Source: Embleya scabrispora DSM 41855 (GTDB taxonomy: Bacteria; Actinomycetota; Actinomycetes; Streptomycetales; Streptomycetaceae). From it: a DNA stretch of 64,000 nt. This document shows, in pieces, positions 8,311-48,712 of the stretch. Position numbers and translations under genes: made by a program. The notes beneath the pieces were generated by a model, which searched no databases, was not told the origin of the DNA, and saw only the letters and a program-made list of their open reading frames with translations. The stretch lies in contig NZ_KB889674.1 of NCBI RefSeq assembly GCF_000372745.1, forward strand, positions 1-64,000, written 5' to 3'. Position 1 is the stretch's first letter. Every line of letters begins with the position of its first letter.

Positions 8311-8930
8311 GCACCCAGGCGGCCATGTCGTCGACAACGGGTCTCTCTCGCTCCGGGCTACCTGCGGGGTGCCGCGGCAGCGCGTAGTCCCGTGCCGCGG
8401 CCGGGTAGTCGGACGCGGCGGCCGGGCGGGCGCGGGCGAACGCGAAGAACGCGGTGAGACGCGCGGCCGAGGGCGGCAGCGCGCGAGGCGTGCCGTCCCA
8501 GACGTGGCGTAGCCGGTTGAACCGGTCAAGCGGATCGTGGACCGGTTCTTTGTAGAGGGCGCGGATCTGTGCAGTGTGACGCAGGCGCACGAACGTGTGG
8601 AGTGTGCGCGGCATGTCCGGGTACGAGCGCCTGGTTCCCGCGGGCCGGCCCGCGAGCAGCAGGTCGTGGAGCATCGTGTCCGCGTGGACGTCGCTCGCGG
8701 CGATGGCGGGTTCGATCCGCTACACGGGCGGTCGAAGTGGCCCGGTACGCGCTCAGCAGGCGGATGTAGGACCAGGTCGTCGTTGCGGCGAAGCCCCGTA
8801 TCACCCAGGTATCGGCGAAGGCCGGCGCGCGGCCGGTCTGGAAAGCCCACGCGTCCCGCCCGGCATCGACAGCCGGGGCAGCGGGCCCGACCTCGACCAG
8901 CCGCAAAAGGGCCTCTCCCTCATACCCCAC
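8311..8930 (-). pseudogene. Unrecognised minus-strand gene remnant
   Basis: A minus-strand frame from about 8680 reads MLHDLLLAGRPAGTRRSYPD, PRTLHTFVRLRHTAQIRALY and PLDRFNRLRHVWDGTPRALP with natural-looking composition. An upstream piece in another frame (MGYEGEALLRLVEVGPAAPA, from 8930) may be its N-terminus after a frameshift. I recognise no family, and the 3' end fades into the GNAT fragment on the other strand. Confidence 0.3.
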
Positions 8931-9239
8931 CTACCGTCTCGTCACGACTGTTGATTAGGGCAACATCTGAACAGGGTGTGTGCTGCCGAAGTCGTCCACG
9001 AGACACCGGAAGAAAAGCAACTCCCGCCTCACAAGCAGCCCCCAACCCACACGAGCATCGGGATTCTTCCTGTACCCCCAGGGCGTGGGAGAGGGAACGG
9101 AAGTGCTTGTGCTCGACCACAACGAGTTCGCGACGATATCGCCGGTGGATTTCGAACACAGGATCTCCGCCGCTGGACGGGCAATAGGGCCACAACACTC
9201 GGACATCGTCGCTCCGCAGCGATGGATCGTGGCCGGCGG

Positions 9240-9383
9240 GGGACGGCCCGGGGCCGCCTGGTCGCCTGCGGCGCCCCCGCGGAGGTCTGCACGGCCCCGC
9301 TGCTGTCCGAGCTGTACGGCCGCCCCCTGGATGTCATGCAACGCCCGGGCACCGACGAACTGTTGATCCTGCCGACGCGCTGA
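9240..9383 (+). pseudogene. ABC transporter ATPase (iron-siderophore type), C-terminal tail
   Basis: The last 43 codons before a stop at 9381-9383 read GRLVACGAPAEVCTAPLLSE then LYGRPLDVMQRPGTDELLIL. This is the characteristic end of FecE/FepC-type ATPases after the switch region. The nucleotide-binding domain is gone. Confidence 0.55.
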
Positions 9384-9788
9384 CCGCCGAAATCCGCGCC
9401 CCGGTTCCGCCCCGGTTCCGCACCCGGGGCGGCGGACGCCGGGAAAGCGGCGTGATGTCGTGCCGGTAAAAGCCCGCCCGCCGAATTTGTCGCCCCAGAG
9501 GATGTCGACGCGTTCCCCGCCATCCCCCGAGCGGTCGCGATACCGGGCGGTCGCGAAGAGGGCGCGACGGCCCCACGCCGTCGCTCCGGGCGGCCGATCA
9601 CGATCCTGTGCCGCGTACGAAAACGCCCGGTGGCGGGGGCGCCGGCCGGTAGTGGCCGGGTCGTCCCACACCACCGGGCGAGTAAAGCGGCACCGTCTCG
9701 AAGCGTCGGCACCCGCACGTCCCGACGCGTCGACTCGGTGTCGACCATCTCGAGCTCGGTGACTCGAGCTCGGTTGACTTCCGCCCGG
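9384..9788. other. Intergenic stretch, no gene seen
   Basis: Past the end of the secreted protein gene. A short direct duplication of a CGAGCTCGGT-like element lies near 9750-9775. No conserved protein or strong terminator was found. Confidence 0.4.
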
Positions 9789-11399
9789 CTAACTCAGGCT
9801 CAGCGTGAGCGCCCCCGAGTAGGTCCCCGGGCGTACGAACGCCGGGGTCGTCAACGTCAGGGCGGCGTCCGCCGAAACGCTGCCGCCCGTGGCTCGACCC
9901 TCGACCGGCGTCTGCGTGCACAACTGGGCCTGCGTCGCCCCGAGCGGCCCCGGGGTGCCGGGGGTGACCGTTCCGGGCGCGCCATCGGCCGCCACGCACG
10001 CGGGGGTCCAGGCCACGCTCCCGGCCGGGAGCTTGTCGGTGCCGTTCTGGGCCGTCAGCTCCGACATCGTGCCGGTGAGCGACCACCCGAGGTCGGTCCC
10101 TCGGGCATCGACCACGGTGACCCGGTTGAGCGCGGCGTTCAGGCGCAGCGGTTTGCCGTCGATCGTCGCGCTGCCGAAGTCGATCCGGCCGCCGGCCTGG
10201 GACATCGTCAGGCCGCCGGGCTTGATCTGCCCACTGACCGACTGGGTCAGCCGAGCCGGGCCCTCGCCCACCGTGTACGGCGTCCGCATTCCGATCGCGG
10301 GGTTGCCGAACTCGTACGCCGCGACCGCGGCGGTGGCCGCGGCGGTCACCGTGAACGTCGCGGTGAACGAGCCGTTCGCGTCGGCGGTGGTGGTCACGGC
10401 GTCCTCCGTCGGCGCCCCGGGCTCGTCCTGGGGTTGGACGGTGATCTGGGCGTTCGGCGAGAACGCGGTACCGGTGACGGTCACCTGGGTACCGACCGGA
10501 CCGGTGTTCGGGCTCAGCACGAGCCCCCGCCCGCCGACCGGTACGGACACGACGGTCAACGGCGCCTCCAGGGCCACCGATCCCGACGTGACCTTCAGGA
10601 GCGCCGCCGTACTGGGAACCGCGCCGGCGACGTGCACCCACCCCGACAGCACACCGTCGACGACCTTGACGTCGCTCGCGGCGATGGTCGAGTAGCCGTT
10701 GTCGCAGAATCCGCCGAACTCGGGGAAGCACATGGTCAACCCCACCGGACCGGCCGGCCAGTGCGCGCCGGACAGCGTGACCCGGGAGTTCGAGTCGACG
10801 GTGCTCGGAGTCGCGGTCAGCGTGGGCGCCTGACTGCCCTGCTCGACCGTGTACGACGCGACCACGCCGTTACCGGAGATCGGCACGCACGTCGCCGTCG
10901 CGAGCAGGTTTCCGCCGACGATGGTCTGCACCACGATCGACTTCAGGGTGAGGTCCACCGTGGACCCGGCCGCCGCACCGACGATCGTCGTAGGCACGGT
11001 GAACGGGGGCGGCACGATGGGCGTGTTCACCTCGATCGGCGTTTCGAACGACGGTGGCGCCACCGAGAGATCCCCGGTCGTGCCGCCGGACATGGCGAAC
11101 GTGTAGACGGACTTGATCGTCGCGAGCGGAATCGGAATCGGGCTGGTCGCCGGACTCCCGCCCGCCACGACGTGCATCGAGGTGGCACCGTCACCGTGTG
11201 TCGGGTCCAGGGTCACCTCGAACTGTTGCTGCCCCTCGGGGGCGCCGACCGGGGTCGTACATCGCATGACCGGGGTCACGGTGCCCGCGCCCGCCGACGG
11301 CGCGAGGGCGACCAGACCGCCGCCGAGGGCCAGGGCGGCTGCCGCCACCGAGGCGGCCCAGCGATGGCGGGTCAATCTTCGGGATAGCCGTTTTGACAC
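9789..11399 (-). CDS. Large secreted protein with DUF6801-like N-terminus and Ig-like/IPT-type repeat
   Basis: GTG at 11399 with GGAG 6 nt upstream starts a 536-residue protein. It has a clear signal peptide (MSKRLSRRLTRHRWAASVAA, then AAALALGGGLVALAPSAGA). The next part (VMRCTTPVGAPEGQQQFEVT) resembles the DUF6801 type of actinomycete exported proteins. A central IPT/TIG-like region contains LSPNTGPVGTQVTVTGTAFS, and the C-terminus has GWSLTGTMSEL, as in WxL-like surface domains. There is no anchor or transmembrane segment at the end, so it is probably released or wall-associated. It is divergent from the small secreted protein at 11739 and shares its control region. The function is unknown. 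Confidence 0.82.
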   Translation of the reverse strand: MSKRLSRRLTRHRWAASVAAAALALGGGLVALAPSAGAGTVTPVMRCTTPVGAPEGQQQFEVTLDPTHGDGATSMHVVAGGSPATSPIPIPLATIKSVYTFAMSGGTTGDLSVAPPSFETPIEVNTPIVPPPFTVPTTIVGAAAGSTVDLTLKSIVVQTIVGGNLLATATCVPISGNGVVASYTVEQGSQAPTLTATPSTVDSNSRVTLSGAHWPAGPVGLTMCFPEFGGFCDNGYSTIAASDVKVVDGVLSGWVHVAGAVPSTAALLKVTSGSVALEAPLTVVSVPVGGRGLVLSPNTGPVGTQVTVTGTAFSPNAQITVQPQDEPGAPTEDAVTTTADANGSFTATFTVTAAATAAVAAYEFGNPAIGMRTPYTVGEGPARLTQSVSGQIKPGGLTMSQAGGRIDFGSATIDGKPLRLNAALNRVTVVDARGTDLGWSLTGTMSELTAQNGTDKLPAGSVAWTPACVAADGAPGTVTPGTPGPLGATQAQLCTQTPVEGRATGGSVSADAALTLTTPAFVRPGTYSGALTLSLS

Positions 11400-11593
11400 G
11401 TTGCTCCTTCGTGTGGACGGCCGGTGCGGACGACCTGTTCGGAGCCCGTCGGAAACGAAAGGCGTAGCGAACTATTCGCACATTTGGATCATCCGTAGTC
11501 AAGAGCAAGATGCGACCCGATTCATTCGACACGTGTCACCATGATCGAGAAATACCCGGGAAACCGAATATTCTTTGCCGATATGACTGGTCG

Positions 11594-11645
11594 TGAATTG
11601 CGATCATGAATTGTCGATCTTGAATTTCGCTGTCGGAGAATTGCG
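11594..11645. repeat. Four imperfect direct repeats (TGAATT core)
   Basis: TGAATTG (11594), TGAATTG (11607), TGAATTT (11621) and AGAATTG (11637) recur at 13, 14 and 16 bp, most followed by a CGATC- or CGCT-like half. The spacing is just over one helical turn, in the AT-rich gap between two divergent secreted-protein genes. They are likely binding sites for a regulator acting on one or both. Confidence 0.45.
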
Positions 11646-11664
11646 CTCCGATCCTGCTTGACGA

Positions 11665-11682
11665 AATCCGAAACTTCGGATT
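11665..11682. promoter_or_regulatory. 18-bp palindrome, probable operator
   Basis: AATCCGAA, AC, TTCGGATT is a perfect 8+2+8 palindrome, 56 bp before the ATG at 11739 and just downstream of the direct repeats. Confidence 0.5.
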
Positions 11683-11738
11683 CACTCCAAATGCGCCGAC
11701 AGGAACTTCCGCAGTATCTGTCGAAAGGGGCTCCTTCC

Positions 11739-12242
11739 ATGTCACGATCCAAAGCCCTCGCGGCCGGCGCCGCCGTCTTCGCCGGTGCCATGGCCGCGAC
11801 CGTCGCACTCAGCGGCACGGCCACGGCCGGTGGCCCGTCCACCGCGAAGTACGACTGTCTGACCTCGATCGGGATCAGCTACACCGGCAAGAGCGCGACG
11901 TTCACCACCAACGCGTCGCACCAGATCTCGGCCACCATCGCGCTCGCGCCGCTGATCACCATCAACAACGGCGACCTCACGATCACCGCCAACCTCGGGG
12001 GTCCGAGCGGCACGGTCACCTTCAGCGGCACCGCCGGCACGTCCGGCCCCTTCGGTCCGGTCAACCTGGGTCCGCTGAACAAGACGGCGGGCACGATCTC
12101 CGCCGGTCAGGCCATGACCGTGATCCAGTCGGCCAGTCCGCCCAGCGCCACGAACTGGTCGGTCAAGCTGCACCACAATCCCAATAACGTCGACATCTGG
12201 TGTGTCGGCAAGAGTGCGTTCAGCCCGGCATTGACCTACTGA
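11739..12242 (+). CDS. Small secreted protein, function unknown
   Basis: ATG at 11739 follows GAAAGGGG. The 167-residue product has a signal peptide (MSRSKALAAGAAVFAGAMAA, then TVALSGTATA) and a beta-rich mature part with two Cys (YDCLTSIG and DIWCVGKS) that could pair. Its start (AKYDCLTSIGISYTGKSATF) parallels the first mature residues of the divergent 536-residue protein. This suggests two related exported proteins under joint control. A hairpin follows 8 nt after the stop. No catalytic motif is visible. Confidence 0.8.
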   Translation: MSRSKALAAGAAVFAGAMAATVALSGTATAGGPSTAKYDCLTSIGISYTGKSATFTTNASHQISATIALAPLITINNGDLTITANLGGPSGTVTFSGTAGTSGPFGPVNLGPLNKTAGTISAGQAMTVIQSASPPSATNWSVKLHHNPNNVDIWCVGKSAFSPALTY

Positions 12243-12250
12243 TCCACCAG

Positions 12251-12272
12251 CCCCGCCCTCGGCGCGGCGGGG
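12251..12272 (+). terminator. 7-bp GC hairpin after the small secreted protein
   Basis: CCCCGCC (12251-12257) and GGCGGGG (12266-12272) with an 8-nt loop, just after the stop at 12242; an outer GATCC/GGATC pair may extend it. Confidence 0.5.
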
Positions 12273-12642
12273 GGATCGACAGCAAGGGGTTCGACGCCGC
12301 TTCGATCGTCACGTTTGGGCCGGCCAGGCCCGAGGCGCCGTCGAACCCCGATGCGCACGACCTCGCGACCTCGCGACGTCCCGACTCCCGAGACCGGTGC
12401 CCGCCCCGAGGTCGCGGGCGCGGTGGGCTCGGCGGGGCGCCGGGCGGGTGTCCTTTCCGGCGTCGACGGGCAGCTCGCGCAGGCACGCGCGGCCTTCGGC
12501 CACGCGCTCCTCCACCGCGCGCACGTCCACTCGCGCGGCCGTCCGCAAGGCCAGGCGTTCCGCGCGGCAACATCAGCACACCCCCACGCCCGGCACGGTC
12601 CGGGCGTGGTCCGCCCAATCGGTGCCGGCGTCCGTCCACTCC
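12273..12642. other. Stretch without a supportable gene
   Basis: A minus-strand piece (VDVRAVEERVAEGRACLREL near 12480) looks helical and protein-like but has no recognisable relatives, start or boundaries. It may be the tail of a gene disrupted along with the neighbouring integrase. Confidence 0.3.
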
Positions 12643-13600
12643 TCAAGGGCCCGCGCCACGGATCGCCTCCGTCTGCTCCCGGTGGTACAGATACCGGTAG
12701 GTCGTTGCCGGACTGCGATGCCCGAGCAACCGCTGCACCGTCAACAACGGATTCCGCACCAGATGACCGGCCAGGTACGTCGAGCCGCCCTCGCGGCGCC
12801 CGGTCTCCTCCCGCACCACCAGGCGGGTCGGGATCGCCGACATGAACACCGCGCACGTGTGCCGAAGATCGTGGACCCGAACCCGTGCGGGCATCACCAC
12901 CCCCGCCGCCGTCGCCGCCTCACGCGCCCGCGAGGTCGCTTCGGCGAAGACCTGCTCCCACCGGGACTTGACCGGCATCAGTCCCCGCGCGCCGACGAAC
13001 AATGCCATCGGCTCCAACCCCCGCCCCCGATCGATCACCGTCACCCGACGCAGCGGCGCGGGCATCGCCGCGATCGCGAACACGCGTCGCCTGCCGTGTA
13101 GACGGCCGGCCGGCCGCACCCGGGTCTCGTCGACGTCGTCGACCACGAACAACCGTCCGCCTCCCGGGCCGACAACCGGCCTGCGGCTTTCACGGCGCGT
13201 GCTCGTTCGGTCCGGCGGTAGAGGTCGATCGACCGCAGCACCTCGTGGCGAATCACCACGTCGCGCGGGATGCCGTACTTGGCGACGGCGTGCAACCGCA
13301 CCCGCGCCCCCGAGCCGTCCGGGCGCGGTGGGTCGACCTCGATGTCGAGCAGGGTGGTGAACTCGCGCAGCCGCATCCCGGTCGTCACCGCCGACTCCCC
13401 CACAGCCATGTTCCGCAGCCGATCCCGCCCCCGAAAACTCGGATCGACCGCGCCACACTGCAACACCCCGCCCAGAGCGACCCGGTGCAGCAGTTGCCAC
13501 CGGGCGTGGGACAAGTGCCGCACGTCGAGGTCGTTGACCGTTCCCAGGACAGGGCGTCGCGCCCGTTGGCACGGACCAAGTACGGCATCACCGGCAACGT
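12643..13600 (-). pseudogene. Tyrosine recombinase/integrase, frameshifted
   Basis: The C-terminal catalytic part is intact in one frame: VRVHDLRHTCAVFMSAIPTR, then HLVRNPLLTVQRLLGHRSPA and TTYRYLYHREQTEAIR. This shows the His-x-x-Arg-His box, the LGH box and the nucleophilic Tyr. The upstream part (VNDLDVRHLSHARWQLLHRV, SAVTTGMRLREFTTLLDIEV) with the first catalytic Arg region is in another frame, with the shift near 13130-13190. The N-terminal arm-binding domain is missing beyond about 13600. This is a mobile-element integrase of the phage/ICE type; no att site could be identified. Confidence 0.75.
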
Positions 13601-13703
13601 CCCCGAGGAGACCGCCCAGCGGGATCTTCAACCCGTCCACGACATCACGACGAAACTTCAGTACCTCCCCTCGGCAGTCCGACAAGGCGCTAGCCTGACG
13701 GTT

Positions 13704-14147
13704 ATGCGTCCGATGACCCTCGAGGAACGAGATGCCTTCCTCGCAGAGCCTCATGTCGGGGTGCTGAGCGTCACGGCCGAGGCGGGACGTGCTCCGCTGA
13801 CCGTCCCGATCTGGTACGAGTACCAGCCGGGCAGACTCGTCAAGGTGATCACGGCCCCCGGCCTGCGCAAGGTCCGGCTCATCGAGGAGGCCGGCCGGTT
13901 CGCGTTGTGCGCGCAGGTGGCCGAAGTCGACGACTACCGGTACGTGTCGGTGGAGGGTCCGGTGACCGGGATCGAACCGACCTCGAAGCAGGAGCGCTTC
14001 GACCTGGCCGCCCGATACATGGGCCCGGACCGCGCCACCGACTACATCAACGCGACGGAAGAGACCGCGGCCGGCTACATCACGATCCACATGCGACCGG
14101 AATGGTGGCACACCTTCGACTTCAGAGTGACGCGCGACGGCCGGTAG
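13704..14147 (+). CDS. PPOX-fold (pyridoxamine 5'-phosphate oxidase-like) flavin/F420-binding protein
   Basis: A 147-residue protein starting MRPMTLEERDAFLAEPHVGV at ATG 13704. The order LSVTAEAGRAPLTVPIWYEY, then VKVITAPGLRKVRLIEEAGR and FALCAQVAEVDDYRYVSVEG is the split-barrel core of small PPOX-type proteins that bind FMN or F420 and reduce or sequester small molecules. The C-terminus (ITIHMRPEWWHTFDF) is typical. There is no clear Shine-Dalgarno site, so it may be leaderless. It stands intact between an integrase remnant and an oxidoreductase tail. Confidence 0.85.
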   Translation: MRPMTLEERDAFLAEPHVGVLSVTAEAGRAPLTVPIWYEYQPGRLVKVITAPGLRKVRLIEEAGRFALCAQVAEVDDYRYVSVEGPVTGIEPTSKQERFDLAARYMGPDRATDYINATEETAAGYITIHMRPEWWHTFDFRVTRDGR

Positions 14148-14330
14148 ACCGCGGTGAACCGGGTTCTGCTGTGCTCCGGCGTACGGCTGTGCTCCGGCGT
14201 ACGGCCTCGTCGAGCAACGCTACGGCGAAGTTGCCGGTCGAGATGCGAGACGCGCCCGTCTCGTCGGTGATCGGTTCGTCGGCGCCGAGCCGGTAGAGGC
14301 CCGTGCGTGAACCCGATTCCGGCAGCATGG
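14122..14330 (-). pseudogene. NAD(P)H-binding epimerase-like protein, C-terminal fragment
   Basis: The minus strand reads RTGLYRLGADEPITDETGAS then RISTGNFAVALLDEAVRR, the conserved ending of YwnB-type NAD(P)-binding proteins (G-x-Y-R-x-G-x-D-x-L, S-R-I-S-x-x-D-F-A). A perfect tandem 18-bp duplication (14168-14185, 14186-14203) inserts RRSTAV/RRSTAE at the end. The Rossmann core is missing. Its end overlaps the PPOX gene on the other strand. Confidence 0.6.
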
Positions 14331-14461
14331 GCGGGCTCAGAGGTCGCTTTCTGCCGATGTTTCATCCTGGAATTGGCTGTTTGTCCCATAGCGTTGGATC
14401 GCGCCAGGAGATCCTGGCCTCGCCGGTGAGGCACCGGGCCATCAGGTCATGGCGAGTTGAA

Positions 14462-45402: not shown

Positions 45403-47490
45403 TCACCTCGGCGACGTCGGCCCGGCCGCAGGGTTCGTTCCCTCCCCGCCCCGGTCCCGCAGTCGGCGCAGCGAGTGTCCGGTCGCCGACTTGCACAGGA
45501 ACTCGGCGCGCTCGTAGGACAGTCGCCCTCGGCCGGTCTGCGGGCAGATGTCCTCCGCGCCCAAGGTCCCCGCCCGGGCCGGACCCGGGCGTCGGTCGGC
45601 GAGGAACACCGGGCCCCTGGTCCGGCCGTTCAGGAGTTCGGGCAGGAGCGCGGCCGTCCCGGATCGCCAGGTGATCCACGTGCCACGCCGATCCGACCGC
45701 CGATCCGACCGCCGGTCCGCGCGGCGGGCTCGTCGCTCCGGCAGGTCGAGGTCTTGGACGTTGAGGGCCAGCACGGCCGCGACGGTGGCGCCCGACTCGC
45801 GCAGCAGCGTCCACAACGTGCGCTCGCGCAGCGCGGCTTCCACGTCTCCGGGCCACGCCGTTCCGGGCGGGACCGTGGCGGGCGGGATCGGAGCGGGCGC
45901 CGGCGCGGAGCGGCGTTCGGGCATCCGCTGGGGGATGCCCGCGTCGAGGCCCGGGGTGTGCGTCCACGCCCCGAACGCCCGTACGGCGGCCCGGTGTCGG
46001 TTCCAGGTGGCCGCCGCCACGCCGCCCCACGACCCGCGGAAGGCGCCGGCGATCTGATCGGCCGTCAGCGACGCGAGCGGCATCCCCACGCCCAGAGAGA
46101 GCCGCAGTCGCCACAACGTCTGTCCGTAGGAGCGGGCCGTCGCCGGTGCGAGCCGGTCCTGGGCCAGAAACGCGTCGATGGCCTCACCGAACGTCCGCGT
46201 GGACGCGTCCCCGACCGGGATCGCCTCGGCACGACGCGTCAGGTAGGCGCGTTCGGCGGCGTTCCCGGTCAGCAGCGCCGCGCGCTCGAACTCGCGGCGG
46301 GCCTCCTCGCCGCGTCCCAGGCGCAGCAGCAGGTCGCCGCGTACCCCGGGGAGCAGGTGGTAGTCACGCAGCGTCGGGTCCCAGGTGAGCGTGTCGACGA
46401 GGGCGAGGCCGGCCGCGGGGCCGTCCGCCATCCCCACCGCGACCGCCTGGTTGAGCCGCACCACGGCGGTGGGCAGAAGGCGGGCAAGTGCCGCGTAGAG
46501 TCCGGCGATCCGCACCCAGTCGGTCTCCTCGGCGGTGCGTGCCTGGGCGTGACACACGGCGATCGCCGCCTGCAACACGTAAGGACCGGGCCGGCCGGGC
46601 GTGCCGACCGCGCGGGCCCGCAACATCGCCGCGAAGCCGCGGCGGATGAGCAACCGGTCCCAGCGCCCCCGGTTTTGCGTGTGCAACGGAACCGGTTCGC
46701 CGGCAGGGCCGGTACGCGCCGCCGTACGGGACGCCTGAATCTCCATCAGCGCCACCAGGCCGTGCACTTCTGCCTCGTCCGGCGCGGACTCGGCGAGCAG
46801 ACGCCCCAGCCGCAGCGCCTCCAGGCACAGGCCGGGCCGCATCAGATCGTCGCCCGATGTCGCCGAGTAGCCCTCATTGAAGATCAGGTAGACGACCTCC
46901 AGGACGGAGGACAGGCGTTCGGCCGGGTCGGCGCCGTCCGGGAGTTCGAACGGCACCCGCTCCTCGGCGAGCGTGCGCTTCGCGGTCGCGATGCGGCGGG
47001 CGATCAGCGGCTCGACCGTGAGGAACGCGCGGGCGATCTCGGATGCGGTGAGTCCGCCGAGCAGCCGCAGGGTCAGGGCGACGCGTGCCTCGGTCGGCAG
47101 GACCGAGTGGCAGGAGACGAACATCAGCCGCAGCACGTCCTCTTGTTCGGACGCCGGCTCGGCGGCCCCGAGGTCGTACTCGGGGCCGCCGACGCCGTCC
47201 TCGAGCCGCCGCCGCTCGGCCAGGTCGTGCGCGAGCAGTTCGTCGTGTTCCGCCGACCGCCGGTCGCGGCGGATGTGGTCGACGGCACGGCGTTTGGCGA
47301 CGGTGGTGAGCCAGGCACCCGGATTGTCCGGGACACCCGACTCCGGCCACTGCTCCAGCGCCGCGACCAGCGCGTCCTGCGCCAGTTCCTCGGCCACCCC
47401 GACGTCGCGCACCATGCGGGTGAGCGCGGCGACGATCCGGGCCGACTCCATCTTCCAGATCGCGTCGACCGTGCGGTGGACGTCGGTCAC
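45403..47490 (-). CDS. YCII-associated ECF sigma factor fused to a degenerate tyrosine recombinase
   Basis: One uninterrupted 695-codon frame from GTG 47490, overlapping the YciI stop (GTGA). Residues 1-425 are a complete ECF sigma factor of the DUF6596 type: IVAALTRMVRDVGVAEELAQ DALVAALEQWP (region 2), RLLGGLTASEIARAFLTVEP (region 4), then FNEGYSATSGDDL and TPR-like helices ending REFERAALLTGNAAERAYL. From about 430 it becomes a recombinase: RTFGEAIDAFLAQDRLAPAT ARSYGQTLWRLRLSLGVGMP (SAM-like core-binding domain), TWNRHRAAVRAFGAWT, LWTLLRESGATVAAVLALNV QDLDL, RTRGPVFLADRRPGPARAGT and LSYERAEFLCKSATGHSLRR LRD. The first catalytic Arg appears to be Thr, the HxLRH box reads RRLRD, and the frame ends before the LGH and Tyr boxes. 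The recombinase half could thus bind DNA but not cut it. Confidence 0.85.
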   Translation of the reverse strand: MTDVHRTVDAIWKMESARIVAALTRMVRDVGVAEELAQDALVAALEQWPESGVPDNPGAWLTTVAKRRAVDHIRRDRRSAEHDELLAHDLAERRRLEDGVGGPEYDLGAAEPASEQEDVLRLMFVSCHSVLPTEARVALTLRLLGGLTASEIARAFLTVEPLIARRIATAKRTLAEERVPFELPDGADPAERLSSVLEVVYLIFNEGYSATSGDDLMRPGLCLEALRLGRLLAESAPDEAEVHGLVALMEIQASRTAARTGPAGEPVPLHTQNRGRWDRLLIRRGFAAMLRARAVGTPGRPGPYVLQAAIAVCHAQARTAEETDWVRIAGLYAALARLLPTAVVRLNQAVAVGMADGPAAGLALVDTLTWDPTLRDYHLLPGVRGDLLLRLGRGEEARREFERAALLTGNAAERAYLTRRAEAIPVGDASTRTFGEAIDAFLAQDRLAPATARSYGQTLWRLRLSLGVGMPLASLTADQIAGAFRGSWGGVAAATWNRHRAAVRAFGAWTHTPGLDAGIPQRMPERRSAPAPAPIPPATVPPGTAWPGDVEAALRERTLWTLLRESGATVAAVLALNVQDLDLPERRARRADRRSDRRSDRRGTWITWRSGTAALLPELLNGRTRGPVFLADRRPGPARAGTLGAEDICPQTGRGRLSYERAEFLCKSATGHSLRRLRDRGGEGTNPAAGPTSPR

Positions 47491-47816
47491 GGGCCGAAGA
47501 CCTGCTGAAGCATGCTCTCGCCGTCACCGACGATCCTCCGGAACCGGCGGCCCAGCTCGACCGCCTCCTCCTTGGAGCGGACCTCGACCAGGGCGAAGCC
47601 GACGACCGCCTCCTTGGACTCGGCGAACGGACCGTCCGTGACGGTGACGTCGTCGCCCTCGGAGACCAGCCGGACGCCGCCCGGCTCGAGCCCGCCGGTG
47701 GCCAGCAGTACGCCTGCGGCGCTGAGTTCCTCGATGAAGGCGCCCATCTCGGCGAACAGCTTCTCGTCGGGGGCCTTCGCGTTCTCCGAGGCCCTGGAGG
47801 TCATCAGGTAGCGCAT
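47487..47816 (-). CDS. YciI-family protein
   Basis: ATG 47816 with GGAG 7 nt upstream; 109 residues: MRYLMTSRASENAKAPDEKL FAEMGAFIEELSAAGVLLAT GGLEPGGVRLVSEGDDVTVT DGPFAESKEAVVGFALVEVR. This is the YCII domain with the G-x-x-P...D-G-P-F-x-E-x-K-E motif that goes with ECF sigma factors of the neighbouring type. It overlaps that gene by 4 nt, so the two are translationally coupled. A small dimeric ferredoxin-like fold protein, role unproven. An inverted repeat at 47882-47915 sits in the promoter region. Confidence 0.93.
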   Translation of the reverse strand: MRYLMTSRASENAKAPDEKLFAEMGAFIEELSAAGVLLATGGLEPGGVRLVSEGDDVTVTDGPFAESKEAVVGFALVEVRSKEEAVELGRRFRRIVGDGESMLQQVFGP

Positions 47817-47881
47817 GCTGTTTCTCCGGTTTCGTCTCGCCCGGCCGGATCGCCGGGGTGCATGGACGCGTCGTGGCGGCC

Positions 47882-47915
47882 ATGTGACAGGGAATTGCAT
47901 TATTCCCTGTCACAT
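47882..47915. promoter_or_regulatory. 14-bp inverted repeat between YciI-sigma operon and RibD-like gene
   Basis: ATGTGACAGGGAAT (47882-47895) and ATTCCCTGTCACAT (47902-47915) with 6 nt between. It lies 66-99 bp above the YciI start and 200 bp before the divergent reductase, in an AT-richer patch, so it is a strong operator candidate. Confidence 0.65.
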
Positions 47916-48115
47916 CGGCGAGTCGACGACGGTGCGAGCCCCACGGAAGAAACCCGAGGCCCGCCCGGCTTGGTGACGCGCACGTCGTCGCACGACGAGG
48001 TGGTCGAAGGTCAGCCGCTGGGGCGCCCGCAAAAAATGATCGTCGGAACCGACGGAGTAGTGGACGGCCCGACGCCCTCCATGACCGGCAACCAACGAGG
48101 AAGCGAGACAGTTCG

Positions 48116-48712
48116 ATGCGCATTGTGATTGGTGAATTCGTCAGCCTGGACGGCGTCATGCAGGCTCCCGGCGGCCCCGACGAGGACACCGACGGCGGGT
48201 TCGCCCACGGCGGCTGGACGCACCCGTTCTTCGACCCGCAGGTGATGGGCGGCGCCCTCGCCGAGTGGGCCGCCGACACCGACGCGCTGCTTTTCGGGCG
48301 CCGCACGTGGCAGGTCATGGCCGCCGCGTGGCCCGAGCGGGCCGGCGACCCCTTCGCCGACCACATGAACTCGGTCGCCAAGTACGTCGTCTCCGGCACG
48401 CCGGGCGAAGACGACCCGACGTGGAACAACACCACCCGCATACCCGGCGACCAGGCACTCGACCGGATCCGGAAGCTGCGTGACACCGAGGGCCGGGACC
48501 TGGTGGTGATGGGCAGCCTGACGCTCGCCCGCACCCTCCTCGCCAACGGGCTGGTCGACGAACTGCGGCTCATGATCATGCCGGTGCTCCTCGGCGGCGG
48601 AAAGACGATCTACCCGGCCGACGGCACACTGCGCACGCTCGAACTGGTCTCGACGGTGGTCAGCGGCACAGGCGTGCACGTGTGCACCTACCGACCGGTG
48701 GCCGCGGCGTAG
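48116..48712 (+). CDS. RibD/dihydrofolate-reductase-like family protein
   Basis: ATG 48116, 198 residues: MRIVIGEFVSLDGVMQAPGG PDEDTDGGFAHGGW, then ADTDALLFGRRTWQVMAAAW PERAGDPFADHMNSVAKYVV S, GRDLVVMGSLTLARTLLANG LVDELRLMIMPVLLGGGKTI Y. These are the NADPH-site and substrate-loop motifs of YwjB/RibD C-terminal-type reductases. They commonly accompany YCII-linked ECF sigma genes, as here divergently. The natural substrate is unknown. A terminator follows the stop. Confidence 0.92.
   Translation: MRIVIGEFVSLDGVMQAPGGPDEDTDGGFAHGGWTHPFFDPQVMGGALAEWAADTDALLFGRRTWQVMAAAWPERAGDPFADHMNSVAKYVVSGTPGEDDPTWNNTTRIPGDQALDRIRKLRDTEGRDLVVMGSLTLARTLLANGLVDELRLMIMPVLLGGGKTIYPADGTLRTLELVSTVVSGTGVHVCTYRPVAAA

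Follow-up and report, generated by a model that had tools for sequence, protein, structure and literature searches.

The locus described here raises the question of what a sigma factor would do with a site-specific recombinase that can no longer cut DNA. The window, a stretch of 64,000 nucleotides from Embleya scabrispora DSM 41855, contains a gene in which an ECF sigma factor runs in frame into part of a tyrosine recombinase. The gene, its parts and its neighbours are as follows.

45403..47490, reverse strand: fusion gene of 695 residues, an ECF42-type sigma factor joined to a truncated domain derived from a tyrosine recombinase (open frame, Pfam)
46216..47490, reverse strand: sigma part, residues 1-425, with sigma2, sigma4, DUF6596 and a TPR-like end (Pfam, model)
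46978..47019, reverse strand: codons of residues 158-171 in the sigma4 recognition-helix region, near-fixed in unfused ECF42 proteins and relaxed in this gene
45964..46191, reverse strand: core-binding (SAM-like) domain, residues 434-509, with a TWNRHR motif (Pfam, model)
45445..45831, reverse strand: first half of the recombinase catalytic domain, residues 554-682, which stops at the H..R box (model, alignment)
47487..47816, reverse strand: YciI/YCII-family gene with a 4-base overlap with the sigma start (Pfam)
48116..48712, forward strand: divergent RibD_C-domain gene (Pfam)

The frame at 45403-47490 is open across all 695 residues and contains Pfam domains of both halves, which bears out the in-frame fusion of an ECF sigma factor to a recombinase proposed in the earlier note. 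Sigma70_r2 (18-78) and DUF6596 (192-292) are matched, while Sigma70_r4_2 (123-174) and Phage_int_SAM_1 (444-509, E 0.00025) lie marginally below their Pfam cutoffs; all 13 family members that were aligned match the latter. AlphaFold2 modelled the whole protein with a pLDDT of 88.1 and a pTM of 0.70, and the recombinase half alone with 86.4 and 0.60. Foldseek matched the model of the recombinase half to XerA (E 9e-6) and also to Tn1549 Int, lambda Int, Cre and the repressor MrpR (8a0a); TMq values for the listed matches are moderate (0.25-0.57), with half a catalytic domain present. Active tyrosine recombinases have the set R..K..H-x-x-R..H/W..Y, of which the window protein has Thr for the first Arg, Arg for Lys, Arg for His and no Tyr. 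The motifs had thus been read correctly beforehand, including an H..R box of RRLRD and the absence of LGH and Tyr boxes. The junction had been placed at the natural end of the sigma factor, and unfused ECF42 proteins do stop near there (18 of 20 have 415-443 residues).

ECF42 sigma factors are linked to YciI/DGPF proteins and include Sven_0747 of S. venezuelae, ECF-10 of P. putida and RpoE10 of S. meliloti (PMC8999054, PMC6180224). The window protein resembles them in its sigma2 and sigma4 regions (the latter marginally below the Pfam cutoff), its DUF6596/TPR-rich C-terminal extension, its adjoining YciI gene and its CGACG/CGTC-type -10 (PMC8999054, PMC6180224). Unlike them, the fusions add a C-terminal half derived from a recombinase, and in their main clade neither the TGTCGA-type -35 nor the fixed residues of sigma4 remain. 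In the review PMC8999054 a text search gave no occurrence of “integrase” or “recombinase”, the part of PMC11256431 that was available does not mention a sigma-recombinase fusion, and none appeared among the matches listed in searches of PubMed Central.

The same fusion is found in other genomes across many actinomycete genera, including Embleya, Yinghuangia, Streptomyces, Kitasatospora, Saccharopolyspora, Amycolatopsis, Actinoplanes, Nonomuraea and Streptosporangium. The Embleya scabrispora genome has a second full fusion, a paralogue at C190:6429-8336 with 63% identity, and falls in one genus group with an Embleya hyalina contig (G001); replicons of Embleya sp. NBC_00888 and NBC_00896 carry copies that are 89-91% identical. 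Among 120 relatives listed, a dozen more genomes have matches through both halves, alongside many unfused ECF42 proteins. Genome contigs were scanned with an alignment of the recombinase half, which gave 224 relatives; in 79 of the best 80, which were kept, this half lies in the same frame as the sigma half. At 14 loci, inspection of three frames by eye downstream of the stop revealed no missing recombinase half of the kind that a frameshift or split gene would leave. One copy, on a Streptomyces plasmid next to YciI and DUF998 genes, carries the annotation sigma-70 family sigma factor. Intergeneric transfer is suggested by the recombinase half with the highest identity to that of the window protein (L142/L204, 84% over 243 columns), which belongs to a different genus of the family.

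A protein search of 205 genomes yielded fusions with a longer recombinase part. One (L220/L249) joins the sigma factor to a full-length recombinase in which R, D, K, H, R, H and Y are all present (Pfam Phage_integrase, E 1.3e-12), and eleven further full-length fusions (L221-L229, L236, L183) have Pro at the first Arg and Phe or Leu at the Tyr. With the addition of truncated forms (L105, L113 and L233 among them), these constitute what is here called the early type; loci that remain once it is excluded are assigned to the main clade, which has 41 rows in the first two of the following trees. Fusions form a single group in trees of both halves (97 SH-aLRT; 99/100; 99/95; 100/100), which gives them one origin, and in the sigma trees this group is nested among the unfused ECF42 rows used. 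Two stand-alone recombinases, L109 and L182, are the sister group of the fusions in the recombinase tree (97/86), with L230 next, and the sigma tree separates early-type fusions (100/96) from those of the main clade (100/99). In the sigma tree, truncated rows surround the fusion that retains every catalytic residue, which suggests parallel truncations; truncation may have occurred more than once, but a tree with all truncated forms in one clade is not rejected (p-AU 0.111).

Within 250 bp upstream of the YciI start, fusion loci have a conspicuous 13-bp element, TTCCCTGTCACAT, termed the arm, which usually occurs as two inverted copies. In the window its elements are the following.

47882..47894, reverse strand: arm TTCCCTGTCACAT toward the YciI-sigma operon
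47903..47915, forward strand: arm TTCCCTGTCACAT toward the divergent gene; the 8-bp spacer 47895-47902 lies between the arms
47869..47873, reverse strand: putative -10 core CGACG of the YciI-sigma operon, 8 nt past the arm
47924..47928, forward strand: putative -10 core CGACG of the divergent promoter, 8 nt past the arm

The upstream survey covered 86 of 94 loci; eight (L054, L059, L069, L075, L079, L103, L109, L125) were left out because a single BLAST piece fell short of the protein or no fusion was found, and among them L059 is apparently frame-broken and L075 apparently rearranged. The arm occurs with at most one mismatch in 80 of the 86 regions (shuffled mean, 0.0 loci), and in the other six (L142, L143, L124, L131, L138, L140) the upstream DNA was missing from the stretch and the arm is present in a longer one. 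Longer stretches of 15 loci contain the arm in 14. The exception, L218 (G178:C186), is a decayed fusion with its recombinase half in two frames, a truncated YciI gene and no arm, so that gene and site were lost together. Removal of three same-contig duplicates from 94 usable main-clade regions leaves 91 distinct ones; all 91 contain the arm, on one strand or the other, with no more than one mismatch, and 80 of these have it toward YciI with at most two mismatches. It is also present in 19/19 early-type promoter regions and in 0/18 unfused ECF42 promoter regions, in a comparison made without L022, L030, L051 and L075, for which the upstream region is missing. These counts tie the arm to the promoters of the fusions.

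Core sites of the loxP, Xer and att kinds have two inverted arms of about 11-13 bp and a 6-8 bp spacer. The fusion site resembles them in its inverted arms and short spacer; it differs in that it forms a back-to-back promoter pair, with a spacer of 8 bp in 47 and 9 bp in 10 of 63 two-arm loci, and in that the main-clade protein lacks the catalytic set. CGACG (or GGACG) begins 8 or 9 nt past the right arm in 67/76. A divergent DUF998-type gene of one cluster is present at 54/73 loci: 48/60 with both arms, 4/5 with the left arm only, 0/4 main-clade loci with the right arm only and 2/3 early-type loci. The 12/60 both-arm loci at which no such divergent gene was found include the window, where RibD_C takes that place. 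The divergent gene tracks the arm pattern, which indicates that each arm tends to pair with one promoter direction. The palindrome was also considered as one dimer operator; the arm-per-promoter pattern favours two back-to-back promoters, and a dimer could still span the spacer.

Exact copies of the site are rare. The 11.39-Mb Embleya scabrispora genome has four exact arms, two per fusion locus and none elsewhere, and three more sites with one mismatch versus one with a reversed control. Exact palindromes number seven in 6/374 class genomes and 21 in 20/210 genomes of one family (some genomes are common to both sets), with none for the reversed control in either set; none was found in viral contigs. 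In the family set, 15/21 palindromes precede YciI and a fusion-type sigma gene (short loci show the N-terminal part of the sigma factor alone), and the other six comprise one distant ECF42 locus, one decayed fusion, the stand-alone L182, the split ECF42 gene of L181 and two orphans. At L200 and L201, arm sites with 7-bp spacers occur with no such recombinase or sigma gene detected within 19 kb.

The arm is also linked to stand-alone recombinases related to the fusions. Those nearest to the fusions are L109 (from Actinomadura sp. J1-007) and L230, found by protein search, and L182, found first through its arm. The catalytic set is full in L109 and L182; L230 departs from it only by Val in place of the acidic residue, and the reading frame of the L230 gene is broken near residue 65. 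All three have inverted arms with a 7-bp spacer, about 1.6 (L109), 0.9 (L182) and 0.3 kb (L230) upstream, with 2, 0 and 2 total mismatches (both in the second arm for L109, one per arm for L230/L260), and no sigma gene was detected near them in the stretches examined. A fragment 86% identical to the L109 enzyme (L267) has no arm within 17 kb, and the L109 enzyme itself had no match in phage records at E 1e-20. Twenty more distant stand-alones, 43-50% identical to the L109 enzyme, were picked by protein search regardless of sites. Fourteen of them (L271, L274-L278, L282-L289) have inverted arm-like sequences, separated by 6-7 bp, at a distance of about 100-250 bp upstream of the recombinase gene. 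Their type is GTGTGACAsnrAA-N6-TTAyCTGTCACAC, and across 26 bases they differ from the fusion arm at 3-8 positions (shuffled means 9.8-10.6). Another (L270) has an arm-like pair about 6 kb away, and five have no site above chance with the fusion arm. None of the 12 most distant stand-alones tested has an arm pair above chance, and L169, which is among them, has a related palindrome at the equivalent place. Arm-like pairs beside stand-alones indicate that the arm belongs to the recombinase lineage related to the fusions and has diverged along with it. A site 100-250 bp upstream of the stand-alone's own gene points either to site and gene moving as a unit or to an enzyme that regulates its own promoter. 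A third arm occurs about 75 bp from the inverted pair in L109 (4334-4443), L260 (6172-6277) and L289 (7002-7111).

Comparison of promoters suggests how the arm came to be used. The canonical ECF42 promoter, GTCGA followed after 16-17 nt by a CGACG-like -10, agrees with mapped RpoE10 promoters of S. meliloti (PMC6180224). It occurs in 14/18 unfused regions, the other four being paralogues (L003-L006) from the genome of Embleya scabrispora itself, in 18/19 early-type regions and in 0/91 distinct main-clade regions (TGTCGA-type -35 with CGACG/CGTC -10). Early-type regions have a tandem arm pair (16/19) or a single arm (3/19), and in 18/19 a separate canonical -35 begins 42-56 bp past the start of the nearer arm. 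A CAGGTCA/CTGGTCA-like stretch is visible by eye between arms and -35 in early-type promoters (upstream regions of L250-L265). In the main clade the arm begins 21-22 nt before CGACG, and an ECF42 -35 begins 22-23 nt before it. Sigma4 changes in parallel: R169 is retained in 20/20 unfused, 19/19 early-type and 5/84 main-clade rows, Q165 in 19/20, 19/19 and 34/84, and T149 in 19/20, 19/19 and 8/84. T162 (20/20, 7/19 and 14/84) is an imperfect marker; it is already Ala in 12/19 early-type rows that keep the canonical promoter, which counts against the reading favoured below.

Such changes could also mean that the arm is merely a longer -35 read by an altered sigma4, and that the recombinase half has another role, for example in dimerisation or in contact with a partner. 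The arm includes TGTC, as does the ECF42 -35, and sits at -35 in the main clade, where sigma4 is altered too. Against this, the arms of 18/19 early-type loci stand upstream of separate canonical -35 and -10 elements, stand-alone recombinases adjoin arm-like inverted pairs with 6-7 bp spacers, and the TGTC of the arm lies just 16-17 nt before CGACG versus 22-23 in ECF42 promoters. Thirteen near-fixed bases also exceed what a -35 element usually needs. This alternative is considered unlikely.

Less probable still, the arm could be the attachment site of separate integrating elements aimed at ECF42 loci, with its proximity to the fusion a by-product. The locus L181 (G1074:C50, about 8340-14430) would fit such elements: about 4.9 kb of DNA interrupts an ECF42 gene of the unfused type at sigma4, and of the two junctions one has an arm-spacer-arm site and the other an N-terminal recombinase fragment (45 aa), a layout that is read as an old insertion at an ECF42 gene. 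As the origin of the fusion it is a lead only, its own recombinase being cut at residue 45. The fixed arm-to--10 distance (67/76) does not sit well with mere attachment sites, nor do the presence of exact arms in Embleya scabrispora at its two fusion loci only and the contrast in DUF998-type divergent genes between left-only loci (4/5) and main-clade right-only loci (0/4).

Selection on the recombinase half was estimated from 18 pairs, not all independent, by the Nei-Gojobori method. Pseudogene-like dN/dS in this half had been named in advance as evidence against a functional fusion; values of 0.19-0.51 were found instead (sigma half, 0.14-0.29), as is expected of a sequence under purifying selection. 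All 13 aligned fusions share an end point, GxTLxxL or close, followed by a short variable tail, and many residues are invariant. That the recombinase half is decaying debris of an accidental fusion, read through from the sigma gene, is scarcely credible: the missing catalytic residues, the truncated domain, a dN/dS above that of the sigma half in 17/18 pairs and truly decayed copies (L218, L199) would suit it, but not the low dN/dS, the common end point with its invariant residues or the 79 fused among the best 80 of 224 relatives. The earlier note had also seen integrase debris nearby, which was not confirmed; tblastn with family queries matched only the fusion gene in the window and Pfam found no integrase in 10 other window ORFs, although neither check is exhaustive. 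Of its two explanations, the gain of a non-cutting DNA-binding module is supported, now with a candidate site, and the joining of two genes through a deletion in decaying DNA is rejected because the fusion spans many genera, has one origin in both trees, is under purifying selection and is tied to a conserved promoter element.

The reading that we favour, with a probability of about 0.83, is that a captured and now dead recombinase serves as a promoter-recognition module of an ECF42-type sigma factor, through capture of a half-site, loss of catalysis and, in the main clade, takeover of the -35. An ECF42 sigma factor would have been fused once, in frame, to a site-specific tyrosine recombinase whose part in the protein kept its recognition of the 13-bp half-site and lost cutting. 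Physical binding of the arm by this half is inferred from the association of site and gene; the second half of the catalytic domain helps to grip DNA in known recombinases, and its absence from the truncated part counts against binding. Other points against this reading are the TGTC shared by the arm and the ECF42 -35, the stand-alones that have no site above chance, L267 with no arm, the frame-broken L230 gene, the two orphan palindromes and the one at a distant ECF42 locus, and the both-arm loci in which no DUF998-type gene was found. The recombinase part of early-type lineages would tether the polymerase by binding arms that lie some 50 bp ahead of a normal ECF42 promoter. In the main clade, including the window, the arm is at the -35 position, and with the ECF42 -35 gone and the sigma4 reading residues lost, the recombinase-derived half would have taken over -35 recognition while sigma2 still reads the CGACG -10. 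The presumed targets are the protein's own YciI-sigma operon and the divergent gene, often DUF998 and RibD_C in the window. It is probable that -35 recognition passed in this way from sigma4 to a domesticated, truncated site-specific recombinase and that intermediates survive: an active-looking stand-alone enzyme, a fusion with all catalytic residues, full-length fusions without Tyr, truncated fusions with upstream arms and truncated fusions with the arm at -35. The order would run from capture of an active recombinase and its half-site, through the arm as an upstream tether and the loss of catalysis, to the arm at -35 and decay of sigma4 reading; for the last steps it rests on the trees and on the early type being read as nearer the ancestor, since the ECF42 promoter is kept there.

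Precedents exist for recombinases turned into DNA-binding modules, neither of them fused to a sigma factor in the parts of the reports available (MrpR, PMC10516654; TnsF, PMC10293859). MrpR/YopR, the master repressor of SPbeta, is a DNA-binding regulator with a tyrosine-recombinase fold and no catalysis (PMC10516654). The fusion would resemble it in its fold, lost catalysis and presumed DNA-binding role, whereas MrpR/YopR is a stand-alone repressor with a whole catalytic domain. TnsF of Tn6022, an inactive recombinase with an active relative, has an incomplete catalytic domain and acts as a DNA-targeting module (PMC10293859). The recombinase half of the fusion is likewise inactive and partial, but TnsF serves transposition rather than transcription and has zinc fingers and two core-binding-like domains.

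If this reading is true, a sigma factor has changed which promoters it recognises by taking over an enzyme of a mobile element along with the site that this enzyme recognises, and the sigma factor's own -35 reader decayed later. Living intermediates make the order of these events testable. The fusion would also be a compact natural design in which a module with 13-bp specificity is added to a sigma factor.
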